DNA of 56,813 nucleotides. Origin: Microcaldota archaeon (lineage in GTDB: Archaea > Micrarchaeota > Micrarchaeia > Anstonellales > Bilamarchaeaceae). The stretch lies in contig JAUSHJ010000063.1 of the NCBI GenBank assembly GCA_030648615.1, positions 1 through 56,813 of the forward strand, given 5' to 3'. Shown piece after piece: positions 2 through 33,276 of this stretch (position 1 is its first letter; each line of letters starts with the position of its first letter). The notes below the pieces were generated by a model. It saw only the letters and a list, made by a program, of their open reading frames with translations. It was not told the origin of the DNA and ran no database searches. The position numbers and the translations under genes were made by a program.

Positions 2-2191
2 GATGGAAAGAAACATCTGTTGCCTTCAGATCTTCAGCAAACTGCAGTTACCGCATTGAGTGGCACTATGGGTCAGCTATGGCAGGTCATAGATAACTAT
101 ACCTATGCTAGGTTAGGTCTCGAACCTGGTGCTACTATGCCTGCAAATCAGGGAGTAGAAGCTGACATAAAATCAATGCCTTTCTGGAAAAATCCTGCAC
201 TTAGCAGAGGTACTTCTCTAAATGGTTTCTCTATGGGCTACGATCTAGGTGATTGGAGCATTTATGGAATTAAGGGAGATATAATAGAATTTCAGAAAGG
301 AGAAAAGATATTTGGTCAAGGTGGTGGTGGAGTTATGACACGAAATATATTTGACGAGCACGACGCCATTGGGATATTTTACCGTGCATCTGTGCCAACT
401 GAAATTCCTAGTGTAGGAAAATTAACTGAAGACAAATATTCTCAAGTAGATATTATTTATCAAAGACTTCCTAAAGATCAGAACAAATGGGCATTTTTCG
501 GTAGAATCATGGCAGGTGGAATTTCACCGAGCGATGCTGCACTTATTCCAGGTGCCGCTGTATTTTCTGGTGGATGGAGCGGAGCAACTTTGGGTCTCGA
601 AGTGAAGGGAGAAAGAATTACCACAGTTAAAATCAAGGAAGAAGAAAAAGTCATTAAACGAATGGGTTATGGAGCTATTTTGGGTCATGCTGCATTGCCA
701 TTACCTGAACTTACTGCAATTGCATTAACTAGTTCTGAAGATTACGCGAAGAGGGTGGAAAACTATCTTTCAAGTGCTTATGGTTATGAGCTAGATCACG
801 AAGATGACAAATCCAAGCGCATTGGTTTATTTGCAGGTGGAACTTATCTACATTCTATTCTTACAACCGGTATACGGAAAAATTTGAGGTCGGGTGCAAT
901 AAGCGAAGAAGAAGCTAAGACCGCAAATGATTACGGATCTGCGATGGTGATTGGATGGTATCAGAAACATTCCATACTAATCGGAGCTGAGAAAGTACCT
1001 TATTTCATAGATGCGTCACAACGCATAGAACAAGCGCAGCAGGCATTGGTAGAAAATCCTGAATATGCACGAGCTATAATGGAAAGTGCAGTTTCTGATA
1101 TCAAGGGTCTGAAAAGTGCCGAACGTACTAAATTTGCATTTGGTTATGGGTGGGATGACAGAGTATATGTTATTGCAGCCAGTGATTTTGAAACAATGGC
1201 TGGCATGCGTGCAATAGCTCTAATTACTGGTGATCCAGAAAGAGATAAACAGTGGGTTGGAGAAGCGGTAGCTCAAATAACTCATTATTCAAATCCAGCG
1301 ATACTTGATACTCTTGCAAGATTAAGTTTCCCACTTCCAGGTACAAGGTGGTTATCAAGAGCTTCTCTTGGTGCTGGTCCAGTCTTTGCAGCATCCATTC
1401 CATTAAAGTCTGGTGCTTTCGGAGAACCGATAAATGAATCAGAGTCGTCTAAAATAGGAACCATCAGAAAAGTGGGTTGGACCTACCAAGGAATTCTTAG
1501 AACGTATCGTAGCAGCGATCCTGAAGGATGGGAAGTTTTGTCAGGTCTTATGGGATCAACACGTGAAATAAACGACTATAGCTTTTATTCAGTTAGTGAA
1601 ACACCTGGCAATTCAACTTCTGGAAAACGCCGCGAAAGTGAGTTGCAGATATTACCAATTACTGCAGAGAAGCTCATTAAAACTAGTGGTGGGGCGTTTG
1701 ACAAGACAAATACCTATCTTCTAATCGATAACAAAAATCGAAAGGTATATGCTATGGATTCTAGCTCAGTGGATACAAATCGCCTAGTTAAACTTGCAGC
1801 TGTTGATGAAAGCGCGTGGTTGTTTACAGTCGGTTTCAATAAATCTACCATTATACCTAAAGATATCAGAGGGCAGAGAACTGTTAGTAGTAGCGGGTGG
1901 GACATGATTGTGAGTGCAGGTCCGCTTAATCGTAAAACAGGTGAACTTCCAATTTACGGTGGAGCTTCCAAGGCGTCCGTGGCAGGTGGTGCTGGCGTAG
2001 CATGGTCTAAAACTGATGAAACATCATTAGTTCGCGTTGGTAGCAGTGGCGGTATCGGAACACAACCAAATTTCTTCACAGTATGGGATTCATCGCAATC
2101 AAATTTGGCATTCACGCCATTAGTTTCTTCTACCGATCAACAGAGTAAAAATCCGTGGTGGGTAGGAGCATACGTGCAATTAAAATTTTAA
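2..2191 (+). CDS. large uncharacterised protein, 5' end truncated by window edge
   Basis: Frame is open from base 2 (DGKKHLLPSDLQQ...), so the listed start at 20 is probably internal; stop at 2189-2191; no recognised domain. Confidence 0.7.
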   Translation, partial: DGKKHLLPSDLQQTAVTALSGTMGQLWQVIDNYTYARLGLEPGATMPANQGVEADIKSMPFWKNPALSRGTSLNGFSMGYDLGDWSIYGIKGDIIEFQKGEKIFGQGGGGVMTRNIFDEHDAIGIFYRASVPTEIPSVGKLTEDKYSQVDIIYQRLPKDQNKWAFFGRIMAGGISPSDAALIPGAAVFSGGWSGATLGLEVKGERITTVKIKEEEKVIKRMGYGAILGHAALPLPELTAIALTSSEDYAKRVENYLSSAYGYELDHEDDKSKRIGLFAGGTYLHSILTTGIRKNLRSGAISEEEAKTANDYGSAMVIGWYQKHSILIGAEKVPYFIDASQRIEQAQQALVENPEYARAIMESAVSDIKGLKSAERTKFAFGYGWDDRVYVIAASDFETMAGMRAIALITGDPERDKQWVGEAVAQITHYSNPAILDTLARLSFPLPGTRWLSRASLGAGPVFAASIPLKSGAFGEPINESESSKIGTIRKVGWTYQGILRTYRSSDPEGWEVLSGLMGSTREINDYSFYSVSETPGNSTSGKRRESELQILPITAEKLIKTSGGAFDKTNTYLLIDNKNRKVYAMDSSSVDTNRLVKLAAVDESAWLFTVGFNKSTIIPKDIRGQRTVSSSGWDMIVSAGPLNRKTGELPIYGGASKASVAGGAGVAWSKTDETSLVRVGSSGGIGTQPNFFTVWDSSQSNLAFTPLVSSTDQQSKNPWWVGAYVQLKF

Positions 2192-2239
2192 GTGTTGAGT
2201 TTATTTTTAAATATTTTCAATCTAACCCCTCCAATTGTT

Positions 2240-2376
2240 CAGCCTACAATGTACACCACTAATCAAATCAACTAGTTTTTCTCATATTTCTTGGTTGTGT
2301 ACAGCTTGAGTCAAAATAGTTTTGACTCAGGATTAAGTTTACGGGGGCAAAACCACTGCCCAAACCAAAGAAGTAA
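2240..2376. repeat. structured direct repeat copy R1 flanking the ATPase gene
   Basis: Shares long identical blocks with 3751-3888, e.g. TGGTTGTGTACAGCTTGAGTCAAAATAGTTTTGACTCAGGAT; contains hairpin GAGTCAAAA-TAG-TTTTGACTC. Confidence 0.85.
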
Positions 2377-2404
2377 TACTTTTTCATTTTTCTCTCTCAT
2401 TATT

Positions 2405-3673
2405 CTATACCCACGGTTTCAATAAGAACTTCCAGAGCGGAACATGCAGGATATCTCCATCATAATCATGTTTTTTAGTTATTAAAATTCCTTTCCATCC
2501 CTTATTTCTCTCCAGGAAATATCTAAGGTTCTTTTCATCCGAGCTAACGATATGTTCCTGATATTTGACTTCCATGGCAATTTTTTGTTGCGGAATTAGG
2601 AAATCCACTTCTCTCCCTTCCGCATCCCTCCAGAAATGGGCAGCATCAATCCACTGGCCTACCGAATTCTCTGCAAGCGCTCCGAGAGTTATATCCGGAT
2701 TTAACGACTTTAATATTCCATTATCAGTAAAAATTATTTTTTTTGCAGTACGTTTTTGTTTCATCACAGATTTTGTATAGTTATATATCTGCCATACGGA
2801 AAGGCTTCTCTTTAGTATTTCAAGTTGCTCTGAAACCACTGGGTGACTACACCCTAATATTTGTGCCATGCTTTGATACTGAAATACTGAACCGCTTGTC
2901 GCAGCAGCCAGTTCCAGTGTTTTCATTAGCATGTCATGATTTGCACGAGGGAAAATCGCTGGAATGTCTTTGAAAAATAGCGGATCAAGAAGAGAATTTC
3001 TGATATATTTTTCCCTGTCTTTGTTTTCCAATAATTCTGCTTCTGGTAATCCTCCGTTCTTTATGTATTCTTCACATATGATTATCATCTTTTGTTCGTT
3101 TGTTATCATTTCTCGGTCTGACAAAGGTATCGTCATACCTTTCAGATTCAAATATTCCCGAAAAGAAAACGGATTTATCTTTATCAATCTGAGTCTTCCT
3201 GCCAGACTTTCAGATGATCTTCTGTCCAATTCAAGTGCTGAACTTCCGGTTACGATGAATTTTATATCTGATAGATCATAGTGTCGTTTCAATACATCTT
3301 GCCAGTCTTTCACGAACATTATTTCATCAAATATGATTACTTTTGACCCTTTGCTCTTGAAAAAACTAATGAGAGAATTCAGTTCGTCTGATCCAGTTCT
3401 CATGCTTCTGTCAAATTCGAACCAGCCAATTTCGTTAGGTGACATTCCTTTTTGAATGAGCTTTTGCATTAGTTGTCTGGTTATCACGGATTTTCCGACA
3501 CGTCTAAGTCCGCGTAGCACTATCATAAATTTGGTCTTTACTGCATTTTCCAGGGTTGGAAAAATATCTCTCTCTATTATCGCGTTCGTCACACGTGGAA
3601 ATTCTATTTTGCCCGTTTCCCAGTGTATATTTTGTGAAATTGCCTCTTTTATAAAGTCCATTTTGTGAAACAC
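2405..3673 (-). CDS. AAA-type ATPase with DUF4143/PD-(D/E)XK-like C-terminus
   Basis: Walker A GLRRVGKSVITR, KVIIFDEIMF Walker B, VTGSSALEL, EVDFLI...AMEVKYQ. Confidence 0.88.
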   Translation of the reverse strand: MFHKMDFIKEAISQNIHWETGKIEFPRVTNAIIERDIFPTLENAVKTKFMIVLRGLRRVGKSVITRQLMQKLIQKGMSPNEIGWFEFDRSMRTGSDELNSLISFFKSKGSKVIIFDEIMFVKDWQDVLKRHYDLSDIKFIVTGSSALELDRRSSESLAGRLRLIKINPFSFREYLNLKGMTIPLSDREMITNEQKMIIICEEYIKNGGLPEAELLENKDREKYIRNSLLDPLFFKDIPAIFPRANHDMLMKTLELAAATSGSVFQYQSMAQILGCSHPVVSEQLEILKRSLSVWQIYNYTKSVMKQKRTAKKIIFTDNGILKSLNPDITLGALAENSVGQWIDAAHFWRDAEGREVDFLIPQQKIAMEVKYQEHIVSSDEKNLRYFLERNKGWKGILITKKHDYDGDILHVPLWKFLLKPWV

Positions 3674-3750
3674 CTACTTTCATATTATGGGTAAGGGTTT
3701 AAATATCCTTCCATGTATCAATTTATTTTTATTGTGATTTTTCTAATAGT

Positions 3751-3888
3751 TCCGCCTACGATGTACACAACCAATTAAATCAATTGTTTAGCTCATATTT
3801 CTGGTTGTGTACAGCTTGAGTCAAAATAGTTTTGACTCAGGATACGGTTTACGGAAGCAAAACCTGTTCCGAAGCCTAAGAAATAGTC
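3751..3888. repeat. structured direct repeat copy R2
   Basis: Perfect 12-bp stem TGTACACAACCA (3762-3773)/TGGTTGTGTACA (3802-3813) plus 9-bp stem GAGTCAAAA/TTTTGACTC (3818-3838); homologous to R1. Confidence 0.85.
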
Positions 3889-3901
3889 TTCTCAACCAGT
3901 T

Positions 3902-3955
3902 AGTTTCTCAACATTCTTCCCTTTTTCAGTTGGCACAATCCTTATTTTCGTATTC
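3902..3955 (-). pseudogene. trm56 3'-end fragment A
   Basis: Minus strand reads NTKIRIVPTEKGKNVEKLT, matching the Trm56 C-terminus NAKIKIVPTEKGKNIEKL at 6297-6350. Confidence 0.8.
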
Positions 3956-4046
3956 TTTAAAAATATGTGCTGGTTAATAAATTTTAATAATTATTCTGGT
4001 ACGATCGAAACCTGGTTAGAACATATTTCGTGACACTACTAAAAAG

Positions 4047-4901
4047 ATGATACTGATGGACAAAGATAACTCACTTATTGTTTTTCAAGATAAGGCTATC
4101 AGGAGAGTTTGGCATCAAAATCAGTGGTTTTTTTCAGTAATTGATATAGTTGAAGTTCTTACTGACAGTACTAATCCTAGAAATTACTGGAGTATGCTTA
4201 AAAAAAGGGAATTGGATTTTGGAGTCCAGTTGTCCACATTTTGTGTACAACTGAAATTGTCCTCTTCAGATGGCAAGATGTATGAGACAGATTGTGCCAA
4301 TACAAAATCAATTTTTAGGTTAATTCAATCTATACCTTCAAGGAAGGCAGAACCATTCAAATTATGGCTTGCCCAGGTTGGGTATGAACGCGTTTTGGAG
4401 ATAGAAAATCCGGAAATTGCGCAAGAGCGTATGAAAGAGATTTATGTACAGAAAGGTTATTCAAAATCATGGATAGATAAGCGATTAAGGGGGATAGCAG
4501 TAAGACAAGACCTTACAGATGAATGGAAAAGTAGAGGAATTCAAAGCCAAGACGATTTTTCAATACTCACGGCAGACATATGTAAGGCAACTTTCGATAT
4601 GACTCCTTTAGAATACAAGAAACTCAAAGGACTCACAAAAGAAAACCTTAGAGATCATATGGGAGATCTTGAACTCATATTTACTATGTTGGGAGAAGCA
4701 TCAACAGCTGAGCTTGAGCGAGTCAAAGATCCTAAAACATTTATCGAACATCAAAATCTATCTCGAGATGGCGGAAAAGTTGCAAAGAACGCAAGACTAG
4801 AACTTGAAAGTAAGACTAAAAGATCCGTAATAAGTCAAGAAAATTATCTAGATCAACCAGAGAAAGAAAAGCGAAAAAGATTATTAGAACAAGAAAAATA
4901 A
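4047..4901 (+). CDS. Bro-N domain / prophage antirepressor-like protein
   Basis: N-term VFQDKAIRRVWHQNQWFFSVIDIVEVLTDSTNPRNYWSMLKKR and C-term GGKVAKNARLELESKT...ISQENYL typical of Bro-N proteins. Confidence 0.8.
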   Translation: MILMDKDNSLIVFQDKAIRRVWHQNQWFFSVIDIVEVLTDSTNPRNYWSMLKKRELDFGVQLSTFCVQLKLSSSDGKMYETDCANTKSIFRLIQSIPSRKAEPFKLWLAQVGYERVLEIENPEIAQERMKEIYVQKGYSKSWIDKRLRGIAVRQDLTDEWKSRGIQSQDDFSILTADICKATFDMTPLEYKKLKGLTKENLRDHMGDLELIFTMLGEASTAELERVKDPKTFIEHQNLSRDGGKVAKNARLELESKTKRSVISQENYLDQPEKEKRKRLLEQEK

Positions 4902-4959
4902 TCTAGTGTTTCTCAATCTGTTTTGCCTTGTTAGTCAAAATCTTTCGAAATGCTTGCTA

Positions 4960-5015
4960 GCGTTTCTCAATATTCTTTCCTTTTTCCGTTGGAACATTCT
5001 TTATCTTAGCAATAA
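4960..5015 (-). pseudogene. trm56 3'-end fragment B
   Basis: Minus strand reads IIAKIKNVPTEKGKNIEKR*, matching the Trm56 C-terminus. Confidence 0.8.
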
Positions 5016-5101
5016 TAACTTCTCTTTTAACGTTTTCTCCAGTTGCTATTTTCTAGCATTGGAACGAAATGATTTATAAACTTTAGCTAGGAAATCCAAC
5101 C

Positions 5102-5752
5102 ATGAACTTACTGGAAATGAAAAATAGGCTTGCCTTGGAAACTGCAAAACTAATATTTCAAAATAGCATCGAGGTAGTATTCATAGGGGGCACAGCTCTC
5201 AATACGTTTCATATTAATTATCGATACTCCGAAGATCTGGATCTAGCTTATCAAACGAGAAATCCCAAAACCGAAATCGAAGATCTTCTAGTAGCACATG
5301 GTTATGCTGTTGACAAAACCTCCTTTAATTTCAGGGACATCATTAGTTTAGATGCGGTTTCAATCAAACTAGATGTTTTGAAGTATGAAAAAAAATATAA
5401 TGGTACGACTACGGAAAAACTTGGAGAGACGACTGTGACTACGTTGAAGATCGAAGAGTTTTCGGTTGAGAAAACGATAAGCTTTTTTACGAGAGAAGAT
5501 ATTGCTGGACTGGCAAGGGATGCACACGATCTTTTTTCCATAGAAAATAGATATCATAACTCTTTGGATTTGGCAAAAAAAGCAGAGAAAATCATAAAGA
5601 AAAACGTTTCCAGTTTTAATTACAATATTGATCTATTCGAGAACAACAGATCTAAAGTAGAAAGTGCAGTAGGTCCATATCTTAGAACTCCAATTATTTT
5701 TGAAGATGTCTTGGAGTTCTTGAAGAAATTGCAAGGTGTATTAGTTGATTGA
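5102..5752 (+). CDS. AbiEii-type nucleotidyltransferase (toxin-like)
   Basis: GGTALNTFHINYRYSEDLDLAY motif and overall length fit the AbiEii family. Confidence 0.82.
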   Translation: MNLLEMKNRLALETAKLIFQNSIEVVFIGGTALNTFHINYRYSEDLDLAYQTRNPKTEIEDLLVAHGYAVDKTSFNFRDIISLDAVSIKLDVLKYEKKYNGTTTEKLGETTVTTLKIEEFSVEKTISFFTREDIAGLARDAHDLFSIENRYHNSLDLAKKAEKIIKKNVSSFNYNIDLFENNRSKVESAVGPYLRTPIIFEDVLEFLKKLQGVLVD

Positions 5753-6296
5753 ACCTATCCCAGGGAATGTTTACAAGAACAAGGATATCCCCAATGCAAA
5801 TACTCTTTATAGTGAGATGAAGCTATTCCCTACACCGTTTAAGGGTATTTACTACGTGCCCTATGAATCAGAAAGAAATGGCCAGTACATCACTGATCCT
5901 CATCTGATTATATTTAAGGCGGCAGAGCTTTATTTGAAATCCAATAAATACTATTTTGGTCTGTATTCTGCGTTGTACTATCATAGAATAATCTGGAACG
6001 CACTAGGATTAGACATATTAAATATGAAAATCAGCAGGAAAATAAATAGAAAACTTCCTTCAAAAAAATATTGGCGAGGCAGGGTGATAAATAAAATATT
6101 GTCTGTATATCCATTTCCGATACGTTTTCACAGGATTGGGAAATTTGATCTGCTGGGAGTTATCAAGAAGGGAGCAATTACATACTCTGATTTGAGAAAA
6201 ACAAAGTCCGATGCGATATTTCTATGCAAAAAAGGAGACAAAACCGCGTGTGAAGTGTTAAAAATATTAGAAAAAACTCAAAAAAATAAGAAGTAA
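5745..6296 (+). CDS. AbiEii partner, possible AbiEi-like antitoxin
   Basis: Overlaps the AbiEii ORF by 8 nt; transcriptional-coupling arrangement; identity inferred mainly from context. Confidence 0.55.
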   Translation: MIEPIPGNVYKNKDIPNANTLYSEMKLFPTPFKGIYYVPYESERNGQYITDPHLIIFKAAELYLKSNKYYFGLYSALYYHRIIWNALGLDILNMKISRKINRKLPSKKYWRGRVINKILSVYPFPIRFHRIGKFDLLGVIKKGAITYSDLRKTKSDAIFLCKKGDKTACEVLKILEKTQKNKK

Positions 6297-6845
6297 TCAC
6301 AGTTTCTCAATATTCTTTCCTTTCTCAGTTGGCACAATTTTTATCTTAGCATTGGCAAAATCTTTTTCCTCCAGCATCCTATGCTGTGTTACCTCATTGA
6401 GGAAAATTCCAAGTGCAGCAACTTCGCTATGTGGCTGATTAGTCACAGCAGCATTAAAATCAGATAACTGGTAGACATCGGAAGGTACTTGTTCAGCACC
6501 AACAATAACAAGAAGTTTTGAGTCTCGCGTTTTGAGTCTCGAAACACAGGACTCTGAACCCAAGACCTTCAGGACTGGTAATCCATACATCGTTAAATGG
6601 CAGACAACAAATCCATTTTTTTTATGTTCATTGATGACTTTAGAATAGCTTTTTTCATGACGAACACTTAGTGATCCACCCCAGTTATCCACAATACTAG
6701 AGACTGATTTCTCAAGACTAGAATCATGCTGCCCACAGTAAATGAATTCAGTTGCACCAAATGCACGGGAAACCAGTGCAACATGTGTGGTGATTCTTTC
6801 ATCACGGGGTAATCGGTGGCCTAAACGTAAAATTGATATTTCCAT
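6297..6845 (-). CDS. trm56: tRNA (cytidine-56-2'-O)-methyltransferase Trm56 family
   Basis: RLGHRLPRDERITTHVALVSRAFGA, VCHLTMYGLPV, VIVGAEQVPSDVYQLSDFNAAVTNQPHSEVAALGIFL. Confidence 0.9.
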   Translation of the reverse strand: MEISILRLGHRLPRDERITTHVALVSRAFGATEFIYCGQHDSSLEKSVSSIVDNWGGSLSVRHEKSYSKVINEHKKNGFVVCHLTMYGLPVLKVLGSESCVSRLKTRDSKLLVIVGAEQVPSDVYQLSDFNAAVTNQPHSEVAALGIFLNEVTQHRMLEEKDFANAKIKIVPTEKGKNIEKL

Positions 6846-6934
6846 ATTCTTTATATAGAATAATTATTCTTTTAAAAGAATGATATTAAGGATAACAAAA
6901 ACCCTTTTAAACTACTCATCTCTATTCTTATCAT

Positions 6935-7783
6935 ATGTCTCTCGAGAGTTTGCTTTTCAGCAATATTCAAATGCCAGGTGAACTAGTACGCATAGCATTG
7001 GCTATCCTGGGAACTGCTGCAGTTGCCTATTTTGATATTTTCAATAATCGAAATATACCAAACAACTTTCTCTACGTATTTCTGGGAGTTTCCATACTTA
7101 CAAATATAGTATTCTTTGATCAGGATATATTCGTATTTGCAGCTATTATTGCAGTATTTCTCTCTCTATGGGGTTATTTATTCTATAGAGTTGGTCATTT
7201 CGGAGGTGCGGATGTTTTCGTTTTAGCATCGTTAACTCTGTTGTTGCCCATTCCGCCTTCATTCACACATATGCCATTCAACATGCCATTTATATTTGTG
7301 ATTTTCCTATTCGCATTAATCCTCTCTTCACTGTACTCTGTGGTGGATTTTGCAATAAAACTCACAAAAAAGAATGCAAAACCCAATATGATTTATTTTG
7401 CACTGTTGATTCCATATGCATTATTTGTATACATGTTTTCATCATCACCATTTTTTTCACTATCTTTTCTAATAATAATTTCTATTTCTCTAATTGCCAC
7501 CATATTCTTCGCAGCGTACAGAGAAGACATACTCAAGTTACAAGCTCAGAAAATTCCCATGAGTAAAGTAACTGAAGAAGATGTATTAGCAATAGAGCTC
7601 ATGGATAAGGATACTGTGTGGTTACACAGTCTTAAAAAGCTGATAACCACAGAAGAACTAAAACGACTTAGGAAACTGAAACTACAAGAAGTATGGGTGT
7701 ATACTAAACTCTTGCCGTTCCTTCCATTTGTTTTCCTTGGATTACTATTGTCTTTGGTATTCGCCAATTACCTGTTTTATTGA
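6935..7783 (+). CDS. A24 prepilin peptidase family protein
   Basis: YFDIFNNRNIPN and GHFGGADVFVLASLTLLLP aspartate motifs in a multi-TM protein. Confidence 0.85.
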   Translation: MSLESLLFSNIQMPGELVRIALAILGTAAVAYFDIFNNRNIPNNFLYVFLGVSILTNIVFFDQDIFVFAAIIAVFLSLWGYLFYRVGHFGGADVFVLASLTLLLPIPPSFTHMPFNMPFIFVIFLFALILSSLYSVVDFAIKLTKKNAKPNMIYFALLIPYALFVYMFSSSPFFSLSFLIIISISLIATIFFAAYREDILKLQAQKIPMSKVTEEDVLAIELMDKDTVWLHSLKKLITTEELKRLRKLKLQEVWVYTKLLPFLPFVFLGLLLSLVFANYLFY

Positions 7784-20857: not shown

Positions 20858-20940
20858 CGTATGTCAATTCTAATTAGAATATTTTAATCAATAATATATA
20901 AATATAGGAATATTTTATAAATGTACTTACGGTGATATTT

Positions 20941-33112: not shown

Positions 33113-33217
33113 CCGATCCAACTTTTTGTCGGATCTGTTTGTCCTTCGGACAAATATTTCGAAATTCCTGGAATTTCTCAATCGATCTATTCAGAACCTT
33201 CTTAATTTGTTCTGAAT
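33113..33217 (-). promoter_or_regulatory. array of four hairpins upstream of 32258-33082
   Basis: GATCC/GGATC, TTTGTCC-TTC-GGACAAA, GAAATTCC-T-GGAATTTC, ATTCAGAAC/GTTCTGAAT. Confidence 0.65.
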
Positions 33218-33276
33218 ATTCCTATATTTATATTTTATTGATTAAAATATTCTGATTGGAATCTAATCAAAACCCA

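Follow-up and report, generated by a model that had tools for sequence, protein, structure and literature searches.

Copies of the trm56 3' end between defence-type cassettes in a Micrarchaeota genome, and comparable scars in related archaea

Defence and toxin-antitoxin modules move between genomes although many of them possess no mobility enzyme. The locus described here raises the question of how several such cassettes came to stand in a row behind trm56 with extra copies of the last codons of that gene between them. The window (the whole stretch of DNA that was analysed, 56,813 nucleotides) is contig C8 of a 1.65-Mb Micrarchaeota metagenome-assembled genome (G000); the family genomes searched include no other member of its genus.

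The array behind trm56

Proceeding from trm56, an AbiE-type pair on the opposite strand is followed by copy B of the trm56 3' end, a trace of a further end, a Bro-N gene, copy A, and then an ATPase cassette in which a 145-bp repeat, an AAA_14-DUF4143 ATPase, and a second 145-bp repeat precede a large gene with no Pfam match. The features are as follows:

6297..6845, minus strand: trm56, intact, 182 aa (PF01994, 1.1e-39; NCBIfam aTrm56 model, 1e-57, below its cut-off)
6302..6351, minus strand: T, the functional trm56 3' end and parent-type repeat copy (DNA search, alignment)
5745..6296, plus strand: AbiEi-like gene (PADLOC AbiEi, 3.7e-7; no Pfam match)
5102..5752, plus strand: AbiEii-like nucleotidyltransferase (PF08843, 5.9e-13)
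4957..5011, minus strand: copy B of the trm56 3' end, AKIKNVPTEKGKNIEKR and stop (90% to T over 50 bp)
4903..4929, minus strand: trace of a further trm56 end, KAKQIEKH and stop (21/27 to the end of B)
4047..4901, plus strand: Bro-N gene, PDC-S13 type (PF02498, 2.7e-10; PADLOC PDC-S13, 1e-118)
3897..3954, minus strand: copy A of the trm56 3' end, NTKIRIVPTEKGKNVEKLTG and stop (85% to T over 53 bp)
3742..3885, no strand: 145-bp repeat, copy upstream of the ATPase (84% to 2230-2375; fold z -4.6)
3817-3839: palindrome TGAGTCAAAATAGTTTTGACTCA in the upstream 145-bp copy
2405..3673, minus strand: AAA_14-DUF4143 ATPase, PDC-S01 type (PF13173, 1.1e-29; PF13635, 3.6e-20; PDC-S01, 5.8e-58)
2230..2375, no strand: 145-bp repeat, copy downstream of the ATPase (84% to 3742-3885; palindrome at 2307-2329)

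The stop of the AbiEi-like gene abuts that of trm56. Together with the adjoining AbiEii-like gene, this predicted partner, called by PADLOC only, forms the gene arrangement of AbiE (type IV toxin-antitoxin). The separation of the Bro-N gene from this pair by trm56 copies, as proposed in the sequence-only reading, agrees with the domain calls (PF02498, PF08843, PADLOC AbiEi). On contig C53 of the same genome, a Bro-N paralog with 57% identity is flanked by hisIE and hisS (L127, 6210-7079), and among the family genomes searched Bro-N occurs in no genome apart from the host. A search of 2000-7000 against Rfam gave no match, and no tRNA gene was found in the window. Elsewhere in the window is a 48-nt inverted repeat, 94% complementary, with its arms 12.3 kb apart (20867-20914 and 33215-33262).

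When the trm56 3' end was searched as DNA against the whole genome, exactly two more sites were returned, both on the same strand: 4962-5011 in B (90% over 50 bp, E 9e-13) and 3902-3954 in A (85% over 53 bp, E 2.5e-10). Both copies reported earlier are thus real and confined to this locus within the genome. The position and homology of copy A stand as first described, while its extent requires correction, since its stop is located near 3897 rather than 3902. Pairwise matches amount to 45/50 for T and B, 42/50 for T and A, and 41/50 for A and B; the best 53-mer in shuffled windows reached 28-30/53 vs 45/53 for A. The weaker trace is likewise genuine: its score was never attained when the 57-bp intergenic stretch was shuffled 20,000 times, and only three 27-mers in the window match the end of B at 21/27 or better, namely the trace at 4903, B itself, and trm56. 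Repeat lengths in the window are 50, 46-53, and 146 bp.

Alignment of A, B, and the intact end, suggested as a check in the earlier reading, confines all homology to the last ~18 codons; in each copy it starts at the codon A/T-K-I and stops at the stop codon. Each copy has an end of its own (EKL and stop in T, EKR and stop in B, EKLTG and stop in A), and a 9-bp run, GTTTCTCAA, at the gene end is common to all three. Copies A and B and the trace all terminate with the stop codon and are located exactly between the cassettes. On one side the repeats break off abruptly at the gene end; assignment of the junctions would need the donor.

A and B could be supposed to be what is left of full-length trm56 duplications, or of local slippage, as they lie on the same strand, in the same locus, and come from the same gene. 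Against this, the homology covers only the last ~17-18 codons, the gene ends are complete, the cassettes fit exactly between them, and elsewhere similar cassettes lie between partial copies of other genes. No 3'-end copy accompanied trm56 at any of 49 loci in relatives (some genomes being represented twice), where the nearest trm56 is only 59-65% identical. Given this restriction to the last ~18 codons and the lack of copies at the relatives' loci, A and B do not have the appearance of decayed full-length duplicates, and an origin as duplication remnants is very improbable.

Comparable scars at other loci

A list was made of direct repeats, 30-400 bp long and not lying inside one gene, in ~0.95 Mb of mostly family DNA, with loci partly chosen around AbiEii genes. 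With paralogs and repeat proteins set aside, several repeats enclose small modules. AbiE pairs are enclosed in this way in G000, G007, and G005, HEPN-MNT in a Pelearchaeum relative, a PIN gene in G000, and ATPases in G000, G007, and G063. The scars measure 28-162 bp and occupy unrelated sites, including one gene 5' end; in Micrarchaeota, the affected gene 3' ends include those of NFACT, glmM, and an ACT gene, the last duplicated around AbiE in G007. The repeats of different loci are unrelated, except those of L135 and L219. The arrangement in G063 (NFACT, ATPase, NFACT 3' fragment, AbiE pair) closely parallels the trm56 array, and two close congeners of G063 have no ATPase after NFACT. On contig C53 of the host genome, both ends of one 170-aa gene are duplicated: an AbiE pair lies between copies of its 3' end, and a PIN gene between copies of its 5' end. 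The type of scar seen at trm56 is therefore not peculiar to trm56. Two further repeats were noticed. In L233 (G018), a 79-bp repeat (5254-5332/7823-7901, 96% identical) encloses a regulator, an unknown gene, and a thymidylate-synthase-like gene, a set that is not obviously defensive. In L166, the 3' end of a HEAT-repeat gene is copied just upstream of its start (5736-5807/7261-7332, 72 bp, 97%), probably from the internal repeats of the gene.

A single-copy empty site was found for one of these insertions. In G025, an ATPase gene stands at the 3' end of a phosphoglucosamine-mutase-like gene, presumably glmM to judge from its sequence, with a 46-bp copy of that end beyond. Its congener G017 has a single copy, across which the joined flanks align unbroken over 1257 bp at 83%, and both G025 copies are nearer to each other than to the G017 copy. 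ATPases of G020 and G027, ~24% identical to that of G025, occupy the same place, with a 29-bp repeat in G020. This spot, between glmM and a HAD-family gene, is occupied in G025, G020, and G027 (L217, L197, and L222) and empty in G017 (L046); the presence of three ATPases with such low identity at one spot indicates that it has been used repeatedly.

Since AbiEii had partly guided the earlier choice of loci, the DUF4143 family was taken as a separate class. With repeats of at least 30 bp, DUF4143 genes were bracketed in 19 of 71 cases, compared with 27/967 other genes (p=7e-12), many of these 27 being cassette partners. For AbiEii the figure was 5/58 vs 27/967 (p=0.03); a tandem gene family accounts for one of these five cases, and the association of AbiEii as a class is weak. 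A first crude test, in which any direct repeat spanning AbiEii was compared with random positions, gave no enrichment (5/58 vs 5.5%); because it counted tandem repeats and paralogs, it was replaced by one based on gene-end or intergenic copies and size-matched genes.

In this tight test (250 bp on each side of the gene, score at least 42), the first count within the family yielded 18/60 vs 4/225 size-matched genes and 2/1170 mismatched flanks. Outside the family it was 12/59 vs 5/55 controls and 2/1160 mismatched flanks, and the contrast with control genes there was not significant (p=0.12). Four of the five control matches outside the family were later recognised as AAA_14-DUF4143 genes that the class list lacked, and one control match within the family as an AAA_14 ATPase. 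After reclassification, the counts for AAA_14-DUF4143 vs size-matched genes became 19/61 vs 3/224 in the family and 16/63 vs 1/51 outside it, or 35/124 vs 4/275 when pooled, a contrast that is somewhat generous because the reclassification was post hoc and left the repeat-less controls as they were. The comparison with mismatched flanks (4/2330 pooled) is independent of reclassification. Among the genes surrounded by scars (AbiE, PIN, HEPN-MNT, and AAA_14-DUF4143), the last are the most frequent.

Origin of the copies and of the ATPase cassette

The sequence-only reading had interpreted the array as attachment-site accretion, with an integrase that targets the 3' end of trm56 and elements that each rebuild this end as they insert. 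The regeneration of the 3' end each time, with a functional-looking end for each copy, the tandem arrangement, and the 9-bp run at the gene end in three copies would all be accommodated by such a process. As that reading had itself recorded, however, no integrase is present in or near the island; the only two tyrosine recombinases found in the genome are encoded on contigs C22 and C71. Moreover, the same scars occur at many unrelated sites and at one gene 5' end with no common target, the cassettes comprise only one or two genes, related ATPases (55-76% identical) stand at different loci within unrelated repeats, and the reverse-translated pattern of the trm56 end had no match in viral contigs. 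A site-specific integrative element at trm56 is thus disfavoured, and integrase action at an attachment site is regarded as improbable. On C71 (L087, 1600-3700 and 4462-5673), split reverse-transcriptase-like frames lie beside variable-region-like proteins that share a GPVGRDD...GWSDAS repeat; the group adjoins a tyrosine recombinase and is possibly a diversity-generating retroelement.

A second possibility is long target duplication, in which a variable target stretch of ~40-150 bp is copied across the cassette, so that both copies are native and identical at birth. The variable, locus-specific length of the repeats, the single-copy empty site in G017, and the closer resemblance of the two G025 copies to each other are all in keeping with it, and long variable duplications of around 100 bp have been reported in restriction-modification (RM) systems (PMC3874152, PMC3031569). 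The distribution of differences between copies argues in another direction. Across nine pairs of gene end and fragment, differences numbered 14, 9, and 50 at codon positions 1, 2, and 3. This third-position excess (50/73) is significant against one third (p=9e-10) and against 0.46 (p=1e-4), the latter being the proportion estimated in this study for a duplicate that starts out identical and then decays neutrally. The largest contributions are those of NFACT and the 5' end of the 170-aa gene, and 23 of the remaining 39 differences also fall at third positions; the trm56 copies by themselves exhibit a modest skew (11/16, p=0.004 vs one third). Copies of a duplicated target would be identical at the start, so changes in the non-functional copy should occur at all codon positions, whereas the observed excess indicates that most of the divergence arose at a time when both copies were coding. 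The copies thus probably came from working genes of two lineages. The frameshift and stop in the NFACT fragment imply some decay after insertion. In the NFACT tree, this fragment falls loosely in the clade of the host on a long branch and names no donor, and no donor sequence for the copies was found. Target duplication is judged unlikely, yet of appreciable probability, and is the foremost rival to the reading preferred here.

With moderate confidence, the copies, their bracketing of cassettes, the comparable scars elsewhere, the congeneric empty site, and the third-position excess across loci are attributed to homology-guided capture of donor DNA, carrying a cassette and an orthologous gene end, repeated as accretion. 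This proposal is favoured over simple target duplication because the excess would be explained if one copy came from the gene of a related organism; integrase-mediated capture would likewise join ends from two lineages. The donor origin, the route, and the order of events are inferred. Under homology-guided capture, 2230-6351 would be an accretion array of small self-contained cassettes of defence and toxin-antitoxin type, captured one after another at the trm56 3' end. Each cassette would have arrived on DNA of a related archaeon along with the trm56 3' end of that organism, through recombination anchored by gene-end homology; this could have been a single crossover with a circular molecule, or homology could have served on one side and illegitimate joining on the other. 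After each event trm56 would be complete, with the cassette behind it and a surplus 3' end left stranded, and repetition would produce the order trm56, AbiE, B, (trace), Bro-N, A. The earlier proposal that cassettes were inserted successively directly behind trm56, leaving one 3'-end copy each time and trm56 intact, is upheld. The preference for 3' ends is readily accounted for by survival, as insertions would persist only if the gene was left complete.

The outermost ATPase cassette would have moved separately, seemingly with a terminal repeat of its own. The ~145-bp direct repeat (84%) that brackets the gene at 2405-3673, which had escaped the sequence-only reading, was detected in a whole-genome search at its two places only. 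Among 43 genomes, the palindrome pattern occurs in both window copies and once beside a DUF4143 gene in G007, and nowhere else; viral contigs gave no match. In G004, a DNA sequence resembling the 145-bp repeat was dismissed as a chance match, since it lies inside an ankyrin-protein coding region. Because the palindrome is limited to its two copies and one DUF4143 neighbour, the window repeat probably belongs to its ATPase cassette. The ATPases of L135 and L219, 58% identical and from different genera, share a common repeat sequence; each L135 copy contains two palindromic motifs of the GTTTCC...GGAAA type, the layout in L219 is related, and the 51-bp copies in L219 are 100% identical. By inspection, the repeats of L295 and L296, from different families, are also alike. 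To judge from these sequences, a subset of ATPase cassettes carries repeats of its own, while the unrelated repeats around the 55-76% identical ATPases indicate that most repeats are locus-derived. With at least two kinds of bracketing, the window ATPase cassette need not have moved like those flanked by trm56 ends. The ATPase repeats in L295, L296, L135, L219, L189, and L237 often contain two copies of a short motif; such motifs stand directly before the ATPase gene and after its stop and are possible operator or recombination sites.

The DUF4143 protein of the window contains EVDFLI...AMEVKY, and this domain resembles a PD-(D/E)XK nuclease. The nuclease likeness, the terminal direct repeats of some cassettes, with operator-like motifs immediately ahead of the promoter and behind the stop, the cross-genus repeats (L219/L135, and apparently L295/L296), and the G007 palindrome have led to the speculative and rather doubtful suggestion that AAA_14-DUF4143 genes may be self-contained single-gene archaeal mobile elements promoting their own insertion.

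Relation to known systems

Similar scars in related archaea suggest that such cassettes spread with no recognisable mobility enzyme. The scars constitute a readable record of cassette moves in an uncultured archaeal group, in which each insertion can be dated and oriented; the record includes an empty site, the repeatedly used glmM/HAD site, and a gene family in which the scar signature is statistically clear, and it permits a direct test of target duplication, homology-guided capture, and integrase action. In a literature search that left most subscription journals uncovered, no report of this pattern was found in Micrarchaeota or for DUF4143 genes, and DUF4143 was mentioned in a single paper.

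Integrative elements use the 3' ends of tRNA or protein genes, regenerate the end, and accrete in tandem; in contrast, neither an integrase nor a shared target is evident here. In the minimal mobile elements of Neisseria, homologous recombination swaps different cassettes at positions between conserved genes, with no mobility genes involved; unlike the present scars, this concept implies no duplication of gene ends.

RM systems have been described to insert with a long, variable target duplication of around 100 bp (Nobusato 2000 and Furuta 2010, cited in PMC3874152 and PMC3031569). The two situations share small defence or addiction modules without a mobility gene, direct repeats that vary with the locus, and single-copy empty sites, and direct repeats of tens to ~150 bp bracket the modules here as well. 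The present cases differ in the archaeal host, in the cassettes (AAA_14-DUF4143, AbiE, Bro-N, PIN, HEPN-MNT), and in copies that differ mainly at synonymous positions, which points to two source lineages.

The type VI secretion system (T6SS) immunity-gene arrays of Vibrio cholerae contain orphaned 3' ends that have been attributed to homology-facilitated illegitimate recombination (PMC5361080). In Vibrio the effector gene is displaced, whereas at trm56 the housekeeping gene stays intact with unrelated cassettes behind it, and in either case the mechanism is proposed rather than demonstrated. For both arrays it is proposed that homology anchors one end while the other is joined illegitimately, with successive insertions pushing older material and its orphaned 3' ends downstream.
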